64,000 bases of DNA from Mediterranea massiliensis (GTDB taxonomy: Bacteria; Bacteroidota; Bacteroidia; Bacteroidales; Bacteroidaceae): assembly GCF_900128475.1 (NCBI RefSeq), contig NZ_LT635839.1, positions 280,282 through 344,281 on the forward strand, written 5' to 3'. Both the position numbers and the translations under genes were made by a program. Position 1 is the stretch's first letter. Each line of letters starts with the position of its first letter. The notes under the pieces are model-generated. The model made no database searches. It saw only the letters and a list, made by a program, of their open reading frames with translations, and had not been told where the DNA came from. Positions 12,074-53,992 of the stretch are shown here, piece after piece.

Positions 12074-12156
12074 TTTTTTTGTCCCTGTTCCTTTGATTTT
12101 TGCGACAGACAGCACCGCCTCCACCCCCGACGGAGCAGAACGCACATGCCTCACAT

Positions 12157-12213
12157 CCGGCATAGTTTTACGCCGGAAAAAGCATTGTTTCAGACCGGAA
12201 GCGGCCTTGTTTC
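12157..12213. repeat. 22-bp periodic array, GTTT/CCGGA type
   Basis: GTTT recurs at 12165, 12187 and 12209, and CCGGAA at 12173 and 12195: exact 22-bp spacing over three units in the gap between the convergent deoC and polyprenyl synthetase genes. Confidence 0.65.
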
Positions 12214-12221
12214 GGGAAGTG

Positions 12222-20645: not shown

Positions 20646-21284
20646 TCAATCTTCAGTGCCTACCGGTGCTTCATCGGCCGGAGTATCTTCCTGTCCCTTG
20701 GCGGGATTTGTACGTTTCGTATTATTGGCTATTGATGCCAATGCCCTGTACAACTCAGCTATCAAACGGCCGGAGACAACAATCAAATAACCCACAATAG
20801 GATAAATCACAACCATTGACAAGCCTGTTCCCAAAGGAAGTATTCCAAACAGCTGACCCAACGAGTCTCCTAATCCGAAAACGACAAAAAAAAGCGAAAT
20901 CACACATCCGCCCACTCCAAAATAGAAACCAAGCCATTCGCCCAAGGTTTGAATGAAATGAGAAACCATCGGGATAGCTACAAAATCGCTATTGTCCAAA
21001 AGGATGTCTTTCATCTTTTTCTTCCGGTCCATCCATAGGCTGAAACTCATGATTCCCAAAAATATCAGCAGCAAGAAGACCAGCACGCAGGCAACGATAT
21101 CGCCGCCGGAGAGGAATTCAAATACTCCGCTGTCGGTGACAGTGTAGATGATGTAAGGCGGAAATAACAGATTCAAAACAGATACAGTTCCATACAGCCA
21201 TCTGAAAGGTTCACGATAGAAAGTTCCTCTGTCAATATACCCCCATACCAACTCGAAAAAAGTAAAAAGCTTGTTGTCCATCAT
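20646..21284 (-). CDS. Integral membrane protein of unknown function
   Basis: 212 residues with about four hydrophobic stretches: ~32-50, ~60-85 (IVACVLVFLLLIFLGIMSF), ~112-135 (a Gly/Phe-rich hairpin) and ~148-170. The C-terminal tail is polar with Asn, Glu and Pro. The start could be either of two adjacent ATGs. Codon use is less GC-rich than in the neighbours (many AAA and ATT codons), which may mean a more recent arrival. I recognise no family. Confidence 0.75.
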   Translation of the reverse strand: MMDNKLFTFFELVWGYIDRGTFYREPFRWLYGTVSVLNLLFPPYIIYTVTDSGVFEFLSGGDIVACVLVFLLLIFLGIMSFSLWMDRKKKMKDILLDNSDFVAIPMVSHFIQTLGEWLGFYFGVGGCVISLFFVVFGLGDSLGQLFGILPLGTGLSMVVIYPIVGYLIVVSGRLIAELYRALASIANNTKRTNPAKGQEDTPADEAPVGTED

Positions 21285-21568
21285 AATAAAAACATTTTAA
21301 GTTAAGACCTCATTAACTGTTTGAACACACAAAAAGGCCAGATTTTTCATGTGCGTTTACAAATATATTAAATTATGCCATATCATATTGATAATTCTTA
21401 AAAATAATAACAACATAAGTTCGAAATAAGAATTGATATAATTGGCCGGCCAATGGAAACATAGCTATAAGAGTAGAGTAAGGGTTTTACATCGATAACT
21501 ATTTTTTACCAACCATCCGCGACAATGCCCGCACCGGCTCCCTCCTTGCATTTTTGATTCTCCCAGAG

Positions 21569-21648
21569 AATGTTTCAAACCTAAGGGGGGGTATGTTTCA
21601 AACATTCGGCCTCTATGTTTCAAACATAAGCCCCTCGGGGTTGAAACC
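21569..21648. repeat. 22-bp periodic array, ATGTTTCAAACAT type
   Basis: Palindromes with 6-bp arms around one base (ATGTTTCAAACAT and variants), with the centre at about 21575, 21598, 21620 and, inverted, 21642: spacing 22-23 bp. The array lies just downstream of mutS. The rest of the 440-bp gap 21285-21724 is AT-rich with no recognisable gene. Confidence 0.75.
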
Positions 21649-21724
21649 TCTCCTACGGCAGCAAAAAACAACAGGATGGAGAAAAGCCCCACCCTGTCAA
21701 TCATTTTCAAAAAACCGGAATATC

Positions 21725-24520: not shown

Positions 24521-24525
24521 CATCG

Positions 24526-24589
24526 TGTTTTTCATAGTATTAGATTTTAAGGTTAACAAAGGTTGGAGTACAGCGGTACTCCTTTTTTT
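24526..24589 (+). ncRNA. Short noncoding RNA with intrinsic terminator, copy 1 (Bacteroidales-1-like?)
   Basis: From a perfect promoter, about 65 nt are transcribed: a highly conserved TTAGATTTTAAGGTTAACAA segment and then a terminator, stem GGAGTAC / GTACTCC (24565-24582) plus TTTTTTT. No open frame of note. A second small hairpin CCCGT/ACGGG follows. A nearly identical unit is at 26310-26372. Promoter and terminator closely bounding a conserved RNA is how I recall the Rfam Bacteroidales-1 RNA, but I cannot confirm the match. The 5' end is estimated from the -7 box. Confidence 0.65.
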
Positions 24590-24613
24590 ATGCCCGTACG
24601 CGAACGGGCCTGC

Positions 24614-26092
24614 TCACCGGGCCTTCCAGCCGTCTATCTGGACAGCCGTCTCCGGCCAACTGGGACGGAGGGCCGAACCGTAATTCACAATCACCCCCTC
24701 TTTATTCACCAGCAGGAAGTAGGGTACTCTGTCCTGCCCCAAATGATTGGACATTTTCTGCAAGACTTCACGCGTGGCAAAGTCTTCCCAGTACAGACAT
24801 TCCAACGCCGTTTCCTTCAACGAAAAACGCTGCAATATCCGCTCGTAATCAGCGCGTTTCCCGCTGACGCAGAGGCTGACCATCGCCACCTCGTCCGTGT
24901 CGTATCGGGCACGCAACTGCTTCAGCGGCTCCATCTCCGCCAGGCAGGGAGGGCAGAACACGCCCCAGAAATCGATGTAGAGCACCTTGCCCCGATGCTT
25001 GTCTATCAGCGACCGCAGGGGAGCCATATACTGTTCCGCCTCGGGAGTGTCGGCATCGCCATGCAGCAGGTAGCGGGAAAAGGCTTCGGGACGACGCAAG
25101 TAGTCGGCCGTCCGCCGGTAAAGCAAGCTCAGGGAATGGCGGAGCACGGGCACCTGTACCAGCGCGTCATATTCCTGACGGGCGGAATCCATGGCCACCG
25201 TATCGTTGGCCGCCAGCGAAGCGCCCAACAGGTCGGCCAGCAGGAACTGGGCCACCCTGTTGCCCTGCTGCTCGTCCACCAGGTCCTTGCCGGTAAAATC
25301 AAGGTCGCCCGCCACGGCGCGACGGTACCTCAAATAAAACTTCAGCTGATACATCAGCCGGAAATGAGCGGAGGTGATAATCTTGTCGGCCAGCAACGCG
25401 TCTACCTCGGGCATCAGCGCCTCGCAGGCAGCCATCTCCTTCTGCCAGTCCACCTGCTTCTGCCCATAAAGCCTCCTGATCCGTTGCTGTGCATATCGGA
25501 AACGTTCGGCGTAATAGTCGGCCCGCAACAGACGCTCCGTCAGCTCAGCCACCTCGACTGTGGGATGGTAACGCTCCAGAAACTCCTCCCGCTTCTGCTG
25601 CCGGAGCGCATACTCCGCCTGCACGGCCTGCCCGAACGCCTCTGCCGACGAGCCGACATCGTCCATATAAACATAATCCGGCCTGTAGAAACCTCCTTCC
25701 GTAAAAGCCAGCATACCTTGATTCAGTGTGGCCGAAGTCCCCTCCACCACCGGATGGAACAGGTCTTTGAAATCAATCTGCAGACGGAGGCTGTCGCCCG
25801 GCGCCAGATACAGACGCGGTGCGTAATTGCGAAGCGAAAACTCGCACACCGCCCCGCAGAGCGGCACGCTGAACGAGAAGGTGCCGTCTTCCCTGACAGG
25901 AGCCTTGTACACCGTCTCCTGACTGGGGGTAAAGGATACCAGCACCAGCTGCAGTTCCTTTTCATTCGGATAGACTTCCCGGTTCAGGATGCGGCCCTGT
26001 ACCACAGCCGTCCGGAGGGGTTCGTGACTGTCGGCCCAAAGGCCGTCGAAGCTGCACAGAAACAGACAGAACAAAAAAAGCAAAGGTTTCAT
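24614..26092 (-). CDS. Exported TlpA-like thioredoxin protein
   Basis: 492 residues. Signal peptide MKPLLFLFCLFLCSFDGLWA; an N-terminal beta domain (~30-130) of the DUF4369-like kind; a helical middle; and a C-terminal thioredoxin fold with DFWGVFCPPCLAEMEP carrying the CPPC redox site near residue 375. The C-terminal cis-Pro region is QDRVPYFLLVN. Such proteins are periplasmic thiol oxidoreductases in Bacteroidota; the substrate is unknown. ATG 26092 was chosen to give the signal peptide at the N-terminus. A -7 box TATCTTTG is at 26153-26160. It lies between the two copies of the short RNA gene. A paralogue with CAPC is at 53993. Confidence 0.88.
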   Translation of the reverse strand: MKPLLFLFCLFLCSFDGLWADSHEPLRTAVVQGRILNREVYPNEKELQLVLVSFTPSQETVYKAPVREDGTFSFSVPLCGAVCEFSLRNYAPRLYLAPGDSLRLQIDFKDLFHPVVEGTSATLNQGMLAFTEGGFYRPDYVYMDDVGSSAEAFGQAVQAEYALRQQKREEFLERYHPTVEVAELTERLLRADYYAERFRYAQQRIRRLYGQKQVDWQKEMAACEALMPEVDALLADKIITSAHFRLMYQLKFYLRYRRAVAGDLDFTGKDLVDEQQGNRVAQFLLADLLGASLAANDTVAMDSARQEYDALVQVPVLRHSLSLLYRRTADYLRRPEAFSRYLLHGDADTPEAEQYMAPLRSLIDKHRGKVLYIDFWGVFCPPCLAEMEPLKQLRARYDTDEVAMVSLCVSGKRADYERILQRFSLKETALECLYWEDFATREVLQKMSNHLGQDRVPYFLLVNKEGVIVNYGSALRPSWPETAVQIDGWKAR

Positions 26093-26273
26093 AGGCAATC
26101 GTATAACATCGTTGGACATGACATCGTTTTACCCCGCCCTGGCAGGATGCAACAAAGATAAGAAAACGAATCTCTCGGAGATGCAAACGAATCTGCAAAA
26201 TGCAGGAAAACATCCAAATAAAGCTGTAAATGTTTTAATACATGTTATAAAACAGCTTTTTCCCGCCCCATAA

Positions 26274-26304: not shown

Positions 26305-26309
26305 CAATG

Positions 26310-26372
26310 TGTTTTCATAGTATTAGATTTTAAGGTTAACAAAGGTTGGAGTACAGCGGTACTCCTTTTTTT
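26310..26372 (+). ncRNA. Short noncoding RNA with intrinsic terminator, copy 2
   Basis: Repeats copy 1 almost base for base from the promoter to the hairpin GGAGTAC/GTACTCC (26348-26365) and T run (26366-26372), then CCGT/ACGG. It is oriented away from the TlpA-like gene and towards the 3' end of the next minus-strand gene. The rest of 26093-26498 shows no gene. Confidence 0.65.
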
Positions 26373-26498
26373 ATGCCCGTACGCGAACGGCGGCCCAACC
26401 ATTCCCTCACAAAAACAGCCGCCATTCCCTGACCCTTACACAGGAAACGACGGCTGGTTCACCTTTCATGCGCCGGCGATATCACTCCTCACTCATCA

Positions 26499-27612: not shown

Positions 27613-27627
27613 ATCGAAAACGGAACG

Positions 27628-27975
27628 TTGACAGATTGACACTTTGACACGCCGACCGCCTGAGAATCGCTCCGTTCGGCCCGAAGGACAGGCCGGCGGC
27701 AACGGACGAAGCACGGAGAGCCTTATCCGCTATGCTTCAACGCGATAGCGAAATCCTTACAAAAATTCTGGAAGAAAAACGGAGCGGAAAGCCGCCCTTC
27801 CAGGCTCCGGAACCATGAAAACAGCCGCCCCGAAGCCCGAAAGCGGGGAAAACAATGCCTTTCCCCTCGGAAAACAATGCTTTTATCGAGGGAAAACATC
27901 CGATTTGTCGAGGGAAAACCTGCACGCTGCCGAGGGAAAACATACACTTTACCCCGCCCAAACCGACGTTTTCCC
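27628..27975 (+). repeat. ~347-bp dispersed noncoding element, copy 1
   Basis: Begins TTGACAGATTGACACTTTGA, continues through GAGAATCGCT, GCGAAATCCTTACAAAAATT, a hairpin GCGGAAAGCCGC, GAAGCCCGAAAGCGGGG, and ends in a 22-bp periodic array and AAACCGACGTTTTC. The same order of blocks and nearly the same length are found inverted at 53548-53894. No convincing protein is encoded. The gap 27613-28102 is otherwise empty. Confidence 0.8.
27845..27962. repeat. 22-bp periodic array, GGGAAAACA type
   Basis: The AAAAC of each GGAAAACA unit begins at 27849, 27871, 27893, 27915 and 27937: five units at exactly 22 bp, with the other half of each unit varying (TGCCTTTCCCCTC, TGCTTTTATCGAG and so on). Confidence 0.85.
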
Positions 27976-28102
27976 ATCAAAAAAGGCTGCCCACACCCTG
28001 TTTCTCCCTTCCGTTGGCACGGATGGGGAAAAGGTGTGGTCAGCCAAAAAGCGCTTTCTCCATCAGTTTGTTTTCCAAAAGAGTGAAATCAGAAGCACCG
28101 TG

Positions 28103-28510
28103 TCAGGAAGCCGTCTCCCGCTTCCTCTTCTCCAACACCCGCACGAACTCCGCCTCGTTGACGGGCTGGAGGGCATCGTGCTTGCCGTCCTGATAGATCA
28201 CGAGCACATAGTGCACCAGCGCACGGCCTGCCACCTGCATGGACGAACGGCGCTCCACCGACACCACCTCGGCCAACCGGCGCTCGCGGCTGCGCGAAAA
28301 ACGCCCGCCGTAAACAATCAGCCGCCCGTCGGCAGTCAGCGTATAGGTGGTATGGATGATTCTCTCAATGAAACGGAGCAACAGAATGCCCCACAACACG
28401 GCTATCAGAATATACTTCACCCACAGGCAGTAGACCAGCATGAAGGTAAACAGAAGCAGTGCCAGATACTGGGCCGCACCGATGCGGGCATGGAAAACTC
28501 GGTCCATCAT
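28103..28510 (-). CDS. Membrane-anchored PH-domain-like protein
   Basis: 135 residues. Two hydrophobic segments near the N-terminus (~14-28 and ~32-48), then a small beta domain with HTTYTLTADGRLIVYGGRFS and VVSVERRSSM, ending in a Lys/Arg-rich helix. This matches the bacterial PH (YdbS/DUF304-like) layout. Function unknown. The first of two adjacent ATGs (28510) follows an AAGAGAA ribosome-binding site. It is divergent from nadB. Confidence 0.72.
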   Translation of the reverse strand: MMDRVFHARIGAAQYLALLLFTFMLVYCLWVKYILIAVLWGILLLRFIERIIHTTYTLTADGRLIVYGGRFSRSRERRLAEVVSVERRSSMQVAGRALVHYVLVIYQDGKHDALQPVNEAEFVRVLEKRKRETAS

Positions 28511-30201: not shown

Positions 30202-30283
30202 CAGCAGGTTGTAAACATTCATCGCAACCGGCAGAAAGCATTCTCCTCACCGGCTTCAGAAGGCCTTGGCAACGGCCCGCGTG

Positions 30284-30361
30284 AATGTTTCAAACATGGA
30301 GGCCTTATGTTTCAAACATACACCCTGTGGGTTTGAAACATAAGGCTCCTGTGGTTTAAAC
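30284..30361. repeat. 22-bp periodic array, ATGTTTCAAACAT type
   Basis: AATGTTTCAAACAT, TATGTTTCAAACATA, GTTTGAAACATA and GTTTAAACC in succession. The centres fall at about 30291, 30313, 30335 and 30357. It uses the same core as the array after mutS and lies between convergent nadB and rubrerythrin genes. Confidence 0.8.
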
Positions 30362-30443
30362 CCGACTTTGGGCAGAATTGGATGCAGGCTCTACCTTGTA
30401 AAATAAATTAACCAGTAACAGGTATCTATATTCTGAAAAGAGC

Positions 30444-30547
30444 AAGAGCTGTCTCAAGAAATAAAGTCAGAAGCAAATACAACGTCATCCCGGCCTTGAT
30501 CCGGGATGACAAGATATTAGCGCTTCTTTGTTCTCGAGACAGCTCTT
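30444..30547. repeat. MITE-like inverted-repeat element
   Basis: AAGAGCTGTCTCAAGAA (30444-30460) is repeated inverted at 30531-30547 with one mismatch in 17. Inside is a second palindrome, CATCCCGGCCTTGATCCGGGATG, at about 30486-30508. It lies just beyond the 3' end of the rubrerythrin gene. No protein fits inside. Confidence 0.75.
30483..30510. repeat. Short REP-like palindrome
   Basis: CGTCATCCCGGCCTTGATCC begins a single self-complementary arm related to the REP-like elements at 11996 and 13336, here placed in the loop of a longer inverted repeat. Confidence 0.7.
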
Positions 30548-30576
30548 ACTGATATATGTGGATGTCAATCCAAGTC

Positions 30577-34776: not shown

Positions 34777-34888
34777 TCCGTTGCTGTTTTTACTTGTTAG
34801 ACCACAAAGCGGCCCGAAAACTATACGCGACCGGCGATTTTTTATCATTTTCCCTCCAATAAAGCCGAAAAGCAAATTAAATGACTTT

Positions 34889-34968
34889 CCGAAAAAGAAG
34901 CAATGTTTTCCATCAAAGAAAGCAATGCTTTGCGACAAAGAAAGCAATGTTTTGACAGAAAACAAAGC
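34889..34968. repeat. 22-bp periodic array, AAAGCAATGCTTT type
   Basis: GCAATG begins at 34900, 34922 and 34944 (exactly 22 bp), each inside a dyad such as AAAGCAATGCTTT (6-bp arms, one central base), with a degenerate fourth unit near 34966. It lies upstream of the ECF sigma gene, in the divergent gap 34777-35098. Confidence 0.8.
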
Positions 34969-35098
34969 CACCTTCCACAGACAACAACCTTAACCTAAAC
35001 TTAACGTAACGTTAACCTGAATCCCCACCGCGCCGCCCTACCTTTGCGACATCGAAACAAAGAAATAGAAATGTCTAACTCATAAAACTGAAACGAAT

Positions 35099-52556: not shown

Positions 52557-53435
52557 ATGGAAGGCGGCAAGGATTGGAAGTGGCACCTGACGGCCATCGT
52601 AGTGGTAGGCATCTGGGGCATGACGTTCATCTCGACGCGTGTGCTGATAGAGAACGGGCTCACGCCGCAGGAGATTTTCCTGTTGCGCTTCCTCATCGCC
52701 TACGTGGGCATCTGGTTCATCTCGCCTCGGACGCTGCTGTGCCGCACCTGGCGCGACGAGGGCTGGATGCTGCTGGCGGGCGTGACGGGCGGTTCGCTCT
52801 ACTTCCTGACGGAGAATACGGCCCTCGAAGTGACGCTCACCACGAACGTGGCCTTCATCGTGTGCAGCACGCCCCTACTCACCATGCTGCTGGCCAGGCT
52901 CTTCTATCGGAGCGAGCGGGCCACGTGGTGGCTGGTGGGCGGTTCGTTGCTGGCCCTGCTGGGCGTGGGGCTGGTCATCTTCAACGGCAATTTCGTGCTG
53001 AAGCTTTCGCCGCTGGGCGACGTGCTTTCGCTGACGGCCGCCCTCTGCTGGGCTTTCTATAGCCTGATCATGCGTCAGGTGGCCGACCGTTACTCCACGG
53101 CCTTCATTACCCGCAAGGTCTTCTTCTATGGCGTGCTCACCATTCTGCCCGCTTTCCTGGTGCGCCCGTGGCAATTTCCGCTGGAGGCGTTCGCCCGTCC
53201 TGCCGTGTGGATGAACCTGTTGTTCCTCAGTGTGCTGGCTTCGCTGGTGTGCTTTGCGGTGTGGAACGTCATCCTCAAGCGGCTGGGCACCGTCCGCGCT
53301 TCCAATTACATTTATCTCAACCCCATTTTCACGTCCGTGGGCTCCCTGCTTTTTCTGGGCGAACCGTTGACGCCTGTGGCCCTGCTGGGTGCGGCTTGTG
53401 TGCTGTGCGGCGTCTATCTGGCGGGGAAGAAGTGA
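52557..53435 (+). CDS. EamA/DMT family transporter (second of tandem pair)
   Basis: 292 residues, ten helices, two EamA repeats: IVVVGIWGMTFISTRVLI near the start and the family ending VRASNYIYLNPIFTSVGSLLFLGEP. It is only distantly similar to its upstream neighbour, so the two may form a heterodimer or have separate substrates rather than be a fresh duplication. The second copy of the 347-bp element lies about 110 bp beyond its stop. Confidence 0.9.
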   Translation: MEGGKDWKWHLTAIVVVGIWGMTFISTRVLIENGLTPQEIFLLRFLIAYVGIWFISPRTLLCRTWRDEGWMLLAGVTGGSLYFLTENTALEVTLTTNVAFIVCSTPLLTMLLARLFYRSERATWWLVGGSLLALLGVGLVIFNGNFVLKLSPLGDVLSLTAALCWAFYSLIMRQVADRYSTAFITRKVFFYGVLTILPAFLVRPWQFPLEAFARPAVWMNLLFLSVLASLVCFAVWNVILKRLGTVRASNYIYLNPIFTSVGSLLFLGEPLTPVALLGAACVLCGVYLAGKK

Positions 53436-53547
53436 GTGACAGTCTGTCTTTGTTTTCAGTCTTTTTGCTTTCCTTTTGTACGGAAACGTGCCTTTCTGCT
53501 TACACGTCCCTTTCGTCCGTGGCATCAACCAGCAGGTTCAGACGGCC

Positions 53548-53894
53548 GAAAACGTCCGTTTGAGCGGGGCAGAACGTAGGTTTTCCCCCGTCAGATTGCT
53601 TGTTTCCCCTCGTCAGGTTGTATGTTTTCTCTCGGAAAAAGCACTGTTTTCCGAGGGAAAAGGCACTGTTTTCCCCGCTTTCGGGCTTCGAAACCTCTGC
53701 CTTCGGGCTTCCGAAGTCTCGAAGGGCGGCTTTCCGCCTCGTTTTTTCTTCCAAAATTTTTGTAAGGATTTCGCTATCCGTTTGTCGGTGAACAAGTAAG
53801 GCCTTCCGCGCTCCGTTCTTTTGCATCGGCCTTGCCTTCGGATCGAAACAAGCGATTCTCGGGCGGTTTGAAAATCAAAGTGTCAATCTGTCAA
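53548..53894 (-). repeat. ~347-bp dispersed noncoding element, copy 2 (inverted)
   Basis: Read on the minus strand it has the same blocks in the same order as 27628-27975: TTGACAGATTGACACTTTGA, GAGAATCGCT, AGCGAAATCCTTACAAAAAT, the GCGGAAAGCCGC hairpin, GAAGCCCGAAAGCGGGG, the 22-bp array, and AAACGGACGTTTTC. It fills most of the 557-bp gap between an EamA gene and the TlpA-like lipoprotein gene. Confidence 0.8.
53580..53676. repeat. 22-bp periodic array, GTTTTCC type
   Basis: The last T of each GTTT(T)CC falls at 53584, 53605, 53628, 53650 and 53672 (spacings 21, 23, 22, 22). It is the counterpart, on the other strand, of the array at 27845-27962. Confidence 0.8.
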
Positions 53895-53992
53895 TAGGCG
53901 GCGGACGAAGTCGGCCGATTTTTTATCAGCTCCCGATGTATGTGGCAAATAAATATTACTTATATTTGTAGCAACATTAAATCAAGACCATT

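Follow-up and report, generated by a model that had tools for sequence, protein, structure and literature searches.

A step of 22 or 23 bp is common to tandem intergenic arrays with many sequence-unrelated cores, in samples taken over the Bacteroidaceae. The arrays were recognized in the window, by which we mean the whole stretch of 64,000 nucleotides under analysis. It is part of a 3.95-Mb genome with a GC content of 55.7%, and one window protein is 84-85% identical in relatives that include Caecibacteroides pullorum and Candidatus Bacteroides merdavium. Scanned as a whole at lags 10-40, the window has more than one strong match at lag 22 only (four at 38/66 and three at 41/66, the other lags having 0 or 1). 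Six of its 26 gaps score at lag 22 (27/44) and none of the 26 at lag 23. The six positive gaps are precisely those in which arrays were first reported, so that all six arrays were found at their predicted places and between genes; the weakest two (12157-12213 and 21569-21648) are just at the threshold. The arrays and the features that belong to them are the following.

12145..12221, no strand: weak 22-bp array of about three units, core GTTT...CCGGAA, lag-22 score 27/44, flanked by two convergent genes, DeoC-like (+) and polyprenyl synthetase (-) (Pfam)
21568..21659, no strand: four-unit ATGTTTCAAACAT-family array, same locus as L052/L199, 66 bp past the stop of mutS (-; mutS by Pfam)
27620..27816, + strand: leader of a dispersed GGAAAACA-array element (DNA search)
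27817..27979, no strand: 22-bp array of the GGAAAACA / GTTTTCC family (lag 22), its GGAAAACA units starting, as predicted and by direct reading, at 27849, 27871, 27893, 27915 and 27937
30271..30365, no strand: four-unit ATGTTTCAAACAT-family array that folds as one hairpin, between an FAD-binding gene (+) and rubrerythrin (-), convergent (Pfam)
34866..35023, no strand: 22-bp array, core AAAGCAATGCTTT, with divergent flanking genes
53542..53712, no strand: 22-bp GTTTTCC-family array, the reversed second window copy of the 27620-27979 element
53713..53894, - strand: leader of the reversed second element copy (DNA search; L139)

The six arrays do not amount to six independent cores: the arrays at 27849 and 53580 belong to two copies of one element and those at 21569 and 30284 to one core family. 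Similarly, the count of three arrays between convergent genes stands if 20646-21284(-), which has a weak DUF4282 match below the cut-off, is a gene; the gene finder misses it and gives four. The window also holds repeats of other kinds. At 241-414 and 30366-30576, a 21-bp (10/11-bp) direct repeat TTGAGGATTC/TTGAGGAGCCG is followed by a REP-like palindrome GTCATCCCGCACTTGATGCGGGAT, to which the palindrome GTCATCCCGG...CCGGGATGAC of the gap 30202-30576 is similar, and a 35-bp tandem pair, AGTTGAATAGCCTCACCTCATGTTGACACATCCCTA, lies at 604-673. Two sRNA genes of the FopS family (RF04319; 76.4 and 70.8 bits), at 24525-24592 and 26309-26375, are located on either side of a redoxin-like gene (24614-26119).

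Scoring of lags in intergenic gaps against shuffled controls, proposed as a check at the outset, revealed the same signal well beyond the window. To the window were added 40 stretches of its genome, each of 20 kb (864 kb and 327 intergenic gaps in all), with genes called by a simple codon-usage finder that misses some genes. A gap of at least 100 bp was considered positive for a given lag when it contained a 44-base window repeating at that lag with at least 27 matches (27/44). Lag 22 was positive in 34 of the 327 gaps and lag 23 in 12, whereas dinucleotide shuffles yielded 0-0.4 gaps per lag. Lag 44, a harmonic, was positive in 22 gaps, lag 14 in 11 and lag 21 in 10, and each of the remaining lags of 10-45 in 0-4. 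Eight of the 40 stretches were picked by core pattern and form part of the 327-gap, location, fold and dyad counts; in the 32 untargeted stretches, with the window left out, lag 22 or 23 was found in 25 of 238 gaps. Thus, about one in ten of the sampled untargeted gaps carries an array. Matches at L004 14962-15276 and L009 14435-14931 were removed as runs of N (255 and 439 N), and the array set includes some doubtful entries, e.g. L027 904 and L092 17811. The lag-14 and several of the lag-21 matches appear to be AT-rich simple repeats of another kind. These 14/21-bp repeats, mostly AT-rich (e.g. ATTTGATATTTGATATTTC, CAATTTTCAATTTTCAATTC), constitute a different intergenic repeat class and are present in other gaps (L012 19513-19906, L015 15891-15966, L045 11981-12072 and L028 15600-15681).

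The step itself is strict. Exactly 22 bp separate 136 of 143 scored neighbour pairs and exactly 23 bp separate 50 of 52, although these fractions are biased upward by the selection of arrays on lag. When any gap of 0-30 was allowed between two ATGTTTCAAACAT cores, 10 pairs were found in the window genome, and in every one the spacer was 9 bp. The cores, in turn, are diverse. By eye, about a dozen core families can be told apart among the arrays of the window genome, including AAAGCAATGCTTT / GTTTTCC, ATGTTTCAAACAT, GACGAAGCACTTCGTC (23 bp), GGAAACGNNCGTTTCC and GAAACCAATGGTTTC, and further TTCAGGTAGTACCTGAA, TAAACTGTCAGTTTA, AAGTACTT, AGGTGCCACCT and others.

The recurrence expected in related genomes was observed: in four other Bacteroides genomes (G235, G227, G219 and G163, ten stretches each) lag 22 or 23 was positive in 20 of 279 gaps, and the cores differ (e.g. 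TTTTGTACAGAA, GAAAC...GTTTC and TTGATGTACATCAA). In thin samples (0.02-0.08 Mb each) of six further Bacteroidaceae genera, lag 22 was present in five (G005, G008, G003, G010 and G023; 9 of 60 gaps). The sixth, G013, had lag 22 in none of 31 gaps and two lag-21 arrays (L174 16547-17194 and L175 17246-17440, with ATCTCCAGGCTGGAGAT within one). Other families of the Bacteroidales, represented by five stretches from each of four genomes, had no positive gap (0/139), nor did 200 kb of E. coli K-12 (0/70); compared with the four Bacteroides relatives, this corresponds to Fisher p values of 0.0004 and 0.018. A search of phages with one array and of plasmids with the leader returned no copy, and 50 kb of crAss001 had no match at lags 19-27. 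The idea of a constant period with a changing core is therefore supported across the family samples, with the correction that 23 bp is a second common step beside 22 bp.

The arrays favour the 3' ends of genes. For 56 arrays the genes on both sides are known: 20 of these arrays are located in convergent gaps, which make up 81 of the 564 gaps overall (p 6e-5), and 8 in divergent gaps, which make up 139 of the 564. Among the 28 arrays in tandem gaps, 21 are closer to the upstream stop. (Location, folding and re-ordering were analysed without 11 of the 68 arrays, whose period is 21 or 24.) Such a placement could mean that the arrays are tandem bidirectional intrinsic terminators, in line with the occurrence of hairpins at convergent 3' ends and with the FAD-binding/rubrerythrin gap of L082 and L084, where a hairpin has, by eye, letters in common with the array core of L074. 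Nevertheless, a hairpin followed by a T-run was found before the array at 16 of the 66 array-facing gene ends, within or after it at 9 and not at all at 41, and gene ends without arrays have a terminator-like site at 138 of 459. Considering that 16 of the 66 ends have a terminator-like site ahead of the array, the arrays are not generally the terminator. The intrinsic terminator (a GC-rich hairpin, then a T-run) is not supported as a general answer given the 41 ends that lack such a site, and we regard this explanation as highly improbable.

Two forms of array are dispersed over the window genome. The GGAAAACA array constitutes the 3' part of an element of some 350-450 bp with a shared leader, of which the genome has at least 12 copies including the one in the window (28 of 79 candidates were scored). 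Most leader copies have the region of about 27620-27790 in common, and the two window copies (27617-28179 and 53342-53912) are 77.5% identical over 347 bp. The lag-22 score is at least 26 at 11 of the 12 leader-element loci and 23 at the remaining one. The leader element had no match in 20 other genomes searched, yet a relative is present in L022 and L023, and Rfam contained no family matching three leader copies. In the three copies that were read (L143, L145 and L146) the leader ends in TTACATTTG, which we take to resemble the Bacteroides -7 box TAnnTTTG. Given this likeness, the array of the GGAAAACA element may be transcribed.

The second form is the ATGTTTCAAACAT (ATGTTTC) family, a four-unit hairpin of about 83 bp at 14 loci, two of which are the window arrays at 21569 and 30284. 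Its pattern has 33 forward matches at up to two mismatches, with a zero-mismatch pair at 13 of the 14 loci, whereas the reversed pattern has none at up to two mismatches. Shared flanks were not found among the eight ATGTTTCAAACAT loci compared; some other arrays (L003, L006 and L030) have 70-118 bp of flank in common. Over 13 loci (12 of the window genome and one of L022) the inner core columns are 97.8% conserved and the spacers 67.5%, the former figure being inflated by the fact that cores had served to locate the 12 own loci. The dyad centres are variable (10 and 7 of 13 loci). The pairing spacers are complementary by family consensus and show no covariation by locus (5.31 vs 5.17, p 0.37). 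Several arrays (L002 9878, L029 6823, L007 3907 and L048) have in their flanks a further dispersed repeat, with matches of 54-166 bp at 66-89% identity, which is apparently separate from the arrays.

The units of the arrays are dyads, and several lines of evidence support a self-complementarity beyond chance. The pair counts omit arrays with a dyad score below 0.5. Watson-Crick pairs make up 61.2% of the 1716 arm cells, a value that is biased upward as the axis was picked for best pairing; with the partner slid by +1, +2, +3 or -1, 26.3-29.0% of the cells are paired. Where both arms have changed, 76 of 159 cells are again Watson-Crick pairs, compared with 56.2 +/- 5.8 expected on re-dealt letters. 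That number was attained in 1 of 2000 re-deals and the four slid controls had no excess. These double changes are supportive rather than proof, as the units of one array are related and covariation counts are inflated accordingly. Most arrays also fold into hairpins or strings of hairpins, whichever strand is taken, and the folding is far better than that of shuffled sequences: the mean z of the RNA fold is -4.5 on both strands, and 50 of 57 arrays are below -2 on at least one. As single-stranded DNA, the arrays 21568..21659 and 30271..30365 reach z values of -4.74 and -5.49, whereas array 34886-34960, the centre of 34866..35023, is no better than shuffles (z -0.59); the RNA fold of array 34866 has z -3.1/-2.4. 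Re-ordering of the units weakens folding modestly (mean z -0.7 over the 54 arrays kept after omission of those below 0.42), which implies that local palindromes explain most of the folding, and 6 of 70 arrays scored above all 20 unit-order shuffles. A hairpin of the whole array was rejected as the main constraint in view of the weak re-ordering effect and of spacers without locus-specific covariation.

The original prediction had left two mechanisms standing side by side, cooperative binding of a protein and a string of small hairpins in RNA. The hairpin string fits somewhat better, considering the double changes and the folding below shuffles, and protein half-sites fit less well. The related claim that every dyad would face the same side of the DNA is weak as stated, since two turns of B-DNA take about 21 bp and the step is 22-23, nearer to two turns of A-form RNA.

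Our preferred explanation, to which we give a tentative confidence that falls somewhat short of probable, is that the arrays are dispersed hairpin-forming tandem-dyad elements whose inferred function would be exerted by the folded nucleic acid where transcripts end. More specifically, they are non-coding intergenic elements, each made up of some 4-7 near-palindromic units in tandem at a strict step of 22 or 23 bp, which to judge from the dispersed copies may have spread as small non-autonomous elements. They would be kept after stop codons because the folded transcript end would serve as a barrier. A string of small hairpins past the stop codon could slow 3' exonucleases and so protect the 3' end, and the folded arrays may provide backup termination for either direction, both being roles suggested for REP/BIME. 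The cores would be free to drift as long as self-complementarity stays. The least certain part is what holds the step, which might be an array-copying enzyme or the two-turn geometry of the folded duplex, 22-23 bp corresponding to roughly two turns of an A-form duplex. Three things lead us to favour folded nucleic acid rather than protein half-sites: joint change of the two arms, cores that are free to differ, and the location of the arrays at transcript ends and not at promoters.

Binding to duplex DNA would provide another explanation for the strict step. Each core would then be the site of a protein dimer, of a nucleoid, boundary or roadblock type with diversified specificity, and neighbouring dimers would touch every two turns. 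Such an arrangement is consistent with a step that is kept while the spacers drift, with the same core at several loci that have no flanks in common (the eight ATGTTTCAAACAT loci compared), and with the mixing of half-site variants within the 23-bp family. However, the many unrelated cores per genome would demand many proteins, the arrays lie at 3' ends rather than at promoters, the compensatory double changes exceed independence, and a step of 22-23 instead of 21 bp would be off the phase of B-DNA. We therefore consider protein arrays on duplex DNA unlikely.

A comparison of the same gap between species shows how variable the occupation of a given site is. The FAD-binding gene has rubrerythrin as a neighbour in 13 of 30 loci. 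In the window genome this gap carries the ATGTTTCAAACAT array, in G251 (L074) a 23-bp AAAACATCCGGATGTTTT array within a predicted uninterrupted stem of 46 pairs, in G248 (L077) a 22-bp GTATAACTATAGTTATAC array and in L068 a short lag-22 repeat (28/44), and the remaining nine gaps are at most 167 bp and without a clear array. Similarly, the orthologue of gene 27217 adjoins an array of the same core with a recognizable leader in L022 and L023, where the gene on the other side differs, whereas in L021 both neighbours are kept and the gap of 83 bp has no array. Both comparisons indicate that arrays are gained and lost at a given site and that cores differ between species. They also bear on the proposal that one transposed repeat might account for all arrays, which fails as a general answer given the unrelated cores and the different arrays in one gap, but does apply in so far as some arrays are dispersed copies.

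Conservation of the arrays beyond their surroundings is mixed, extra conservation being present in two of four orthologous comparisons and absent in the other two. In the pair L054 and L022, the array is identical at 70/77 positions and the flanks at 82/137 (p 7e-7). Array 27846-27979 shares 100/126 positions with L022 (leader 140/220) and 90/128 with L023 (leader 154/224), and array 34886-34960 shares 52/74 ungapped positions with L021, its flanks having 104/137 and 76/109. The two comparisons without extra conservation would fit selfish minisatellite hairpins, in which copying or slippage makes 22-bp palindromic repeats that 3' ends tolerate and that have no function for the host. The species-specific cores, the dispersal, the sporadic presence in one gap, the empty 83-bp gap in L021 and the scarcity in divergent gaps (8/56 vs 139/564) all agree with that explanation. 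Selfish repeats would account less readily for the orthologous array that is far above its flanks (70/77 vs 82/137), for the one above its leader (L022) and for the compensatory double changes, and as an explanation of the arrays we hold them to be somewhat unlikely, though, like the protein arrays, they are a rival to be taken seriously.

A broader, more speculative possibility, which we consider doubtful though worth stating, is that the Bacteroidaceae possess a general machinery for reading or writing palindromic DNA or RNA that goes by a ruler of two turns (22-23 bp) and not by sequence. A structure-recognizing enzyme or binding factor would make, spread or use phased hairpin arrays where transcripts end, and the cores would thereby be free to change from locus to locus and from species to species. 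The rule, one step but a different palindrome, is met again in samples from across a dominant family of gut bacteria. Should it be the folded arrays that set transcript ends, Bacteroides would have a layer of gene expression that is so far uncatalogued; should they be mobile, a structure-reading mobilizer would exist. In either case the 22-bp step can be measured as a constraint and is open to experiment in the genetically tractable Bacteroides.

The original prediction knew of no described element with a constant period and a changing core. A literature search, with preprints and most subscription papers outside its scope, yielded no account of arrays that keep one step while their cores change. 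An architectural relative has nevertheless been described, BrickBuilt of P. gingivalis, a minisatellite/MITE of 23-nt intergenic tandem repeats (PMC4596501), which is the closest known system. Its authors predict long stem-loops and remark on the dyad symmetry. It is dispersed, it consists of a leader and an array as does the GGAAAACA family, and a terminator is sometimes located ahead of the element (PMC4596501). Imperfect tandem repeats of about 23 nt in intergenic regions, by which BrickBuilt is recognized, are also what the 22/23-bp arrays in gaps consist of. BrickBuilt has one consensus in one species, with 19 copies in ATCC 33277 and IS-like terminal inverted repeats (PMC4596501), whereas the arrays described here have many unrelated cores, steps of both 22 and 23 bp and a family-wide distribution, and most of those compared have no flanks in common. 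A shared leader of the BrickBuilt type is seen in the GGAAAACA family and not among the eight ATGTTTCAAACAT loci compared. The BrickBuilt consensus AGAYCATARTATCCTCTCRTRTG has no match in the window at up to three mismatches; taken as a dyad, the degenerate consensus forms 6 of 7 pairs, a score equalled by 36% of shuffles.

Other systems share single features with the arrays. CRISPRs likewise have a conserved palindromic core and variable spacers of fixed length. The arrays differ in their 22-bp step, spacers of about 9 bp (in the ATGTTTCAAACAT/ATGTTTC family), 4-7 units, and many loci and cores, and their spacers have a family consensus; the CRISPR reading was put aside on unit size and this spacer consensus. 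The PM2 promoter motif of B. thetaiotaomicron, a -10/-30 promoter element (PMC7366714), was judged unrelated. PINSR of Prevotella intermedia, a 188-bp intergenic repeat with 177-184 copies, is similar in being lineage-specific and intergenic, without terminal inverted repeats and of unknown source (PMC4755523).

The search for a mobilizing enzyme came out negative: the Y1 (IS200-like) transposase PF01797 was absent from all five genomes searched and present in 5 of 14 control genomes including E. coli. Membership of REP/RAYT was ruled out on this ground, although the arrays are extragenic palindromes. REP elements are not known to keep one fixed step of 22/23 bp while their cores are unrelated. 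The REP, BIME and REPIN sequences with their RAYT transposases, for which roles in termination and mRNA stability have been proposed, are comparable in being short extragenic palindromes in regular arrays, with many copies and several classes (PMC2817692, PMC3116915). On our best reading, the arrays would be comparable to both BrickBuilt and REP/BIME, with cores that differ and a step that is common.
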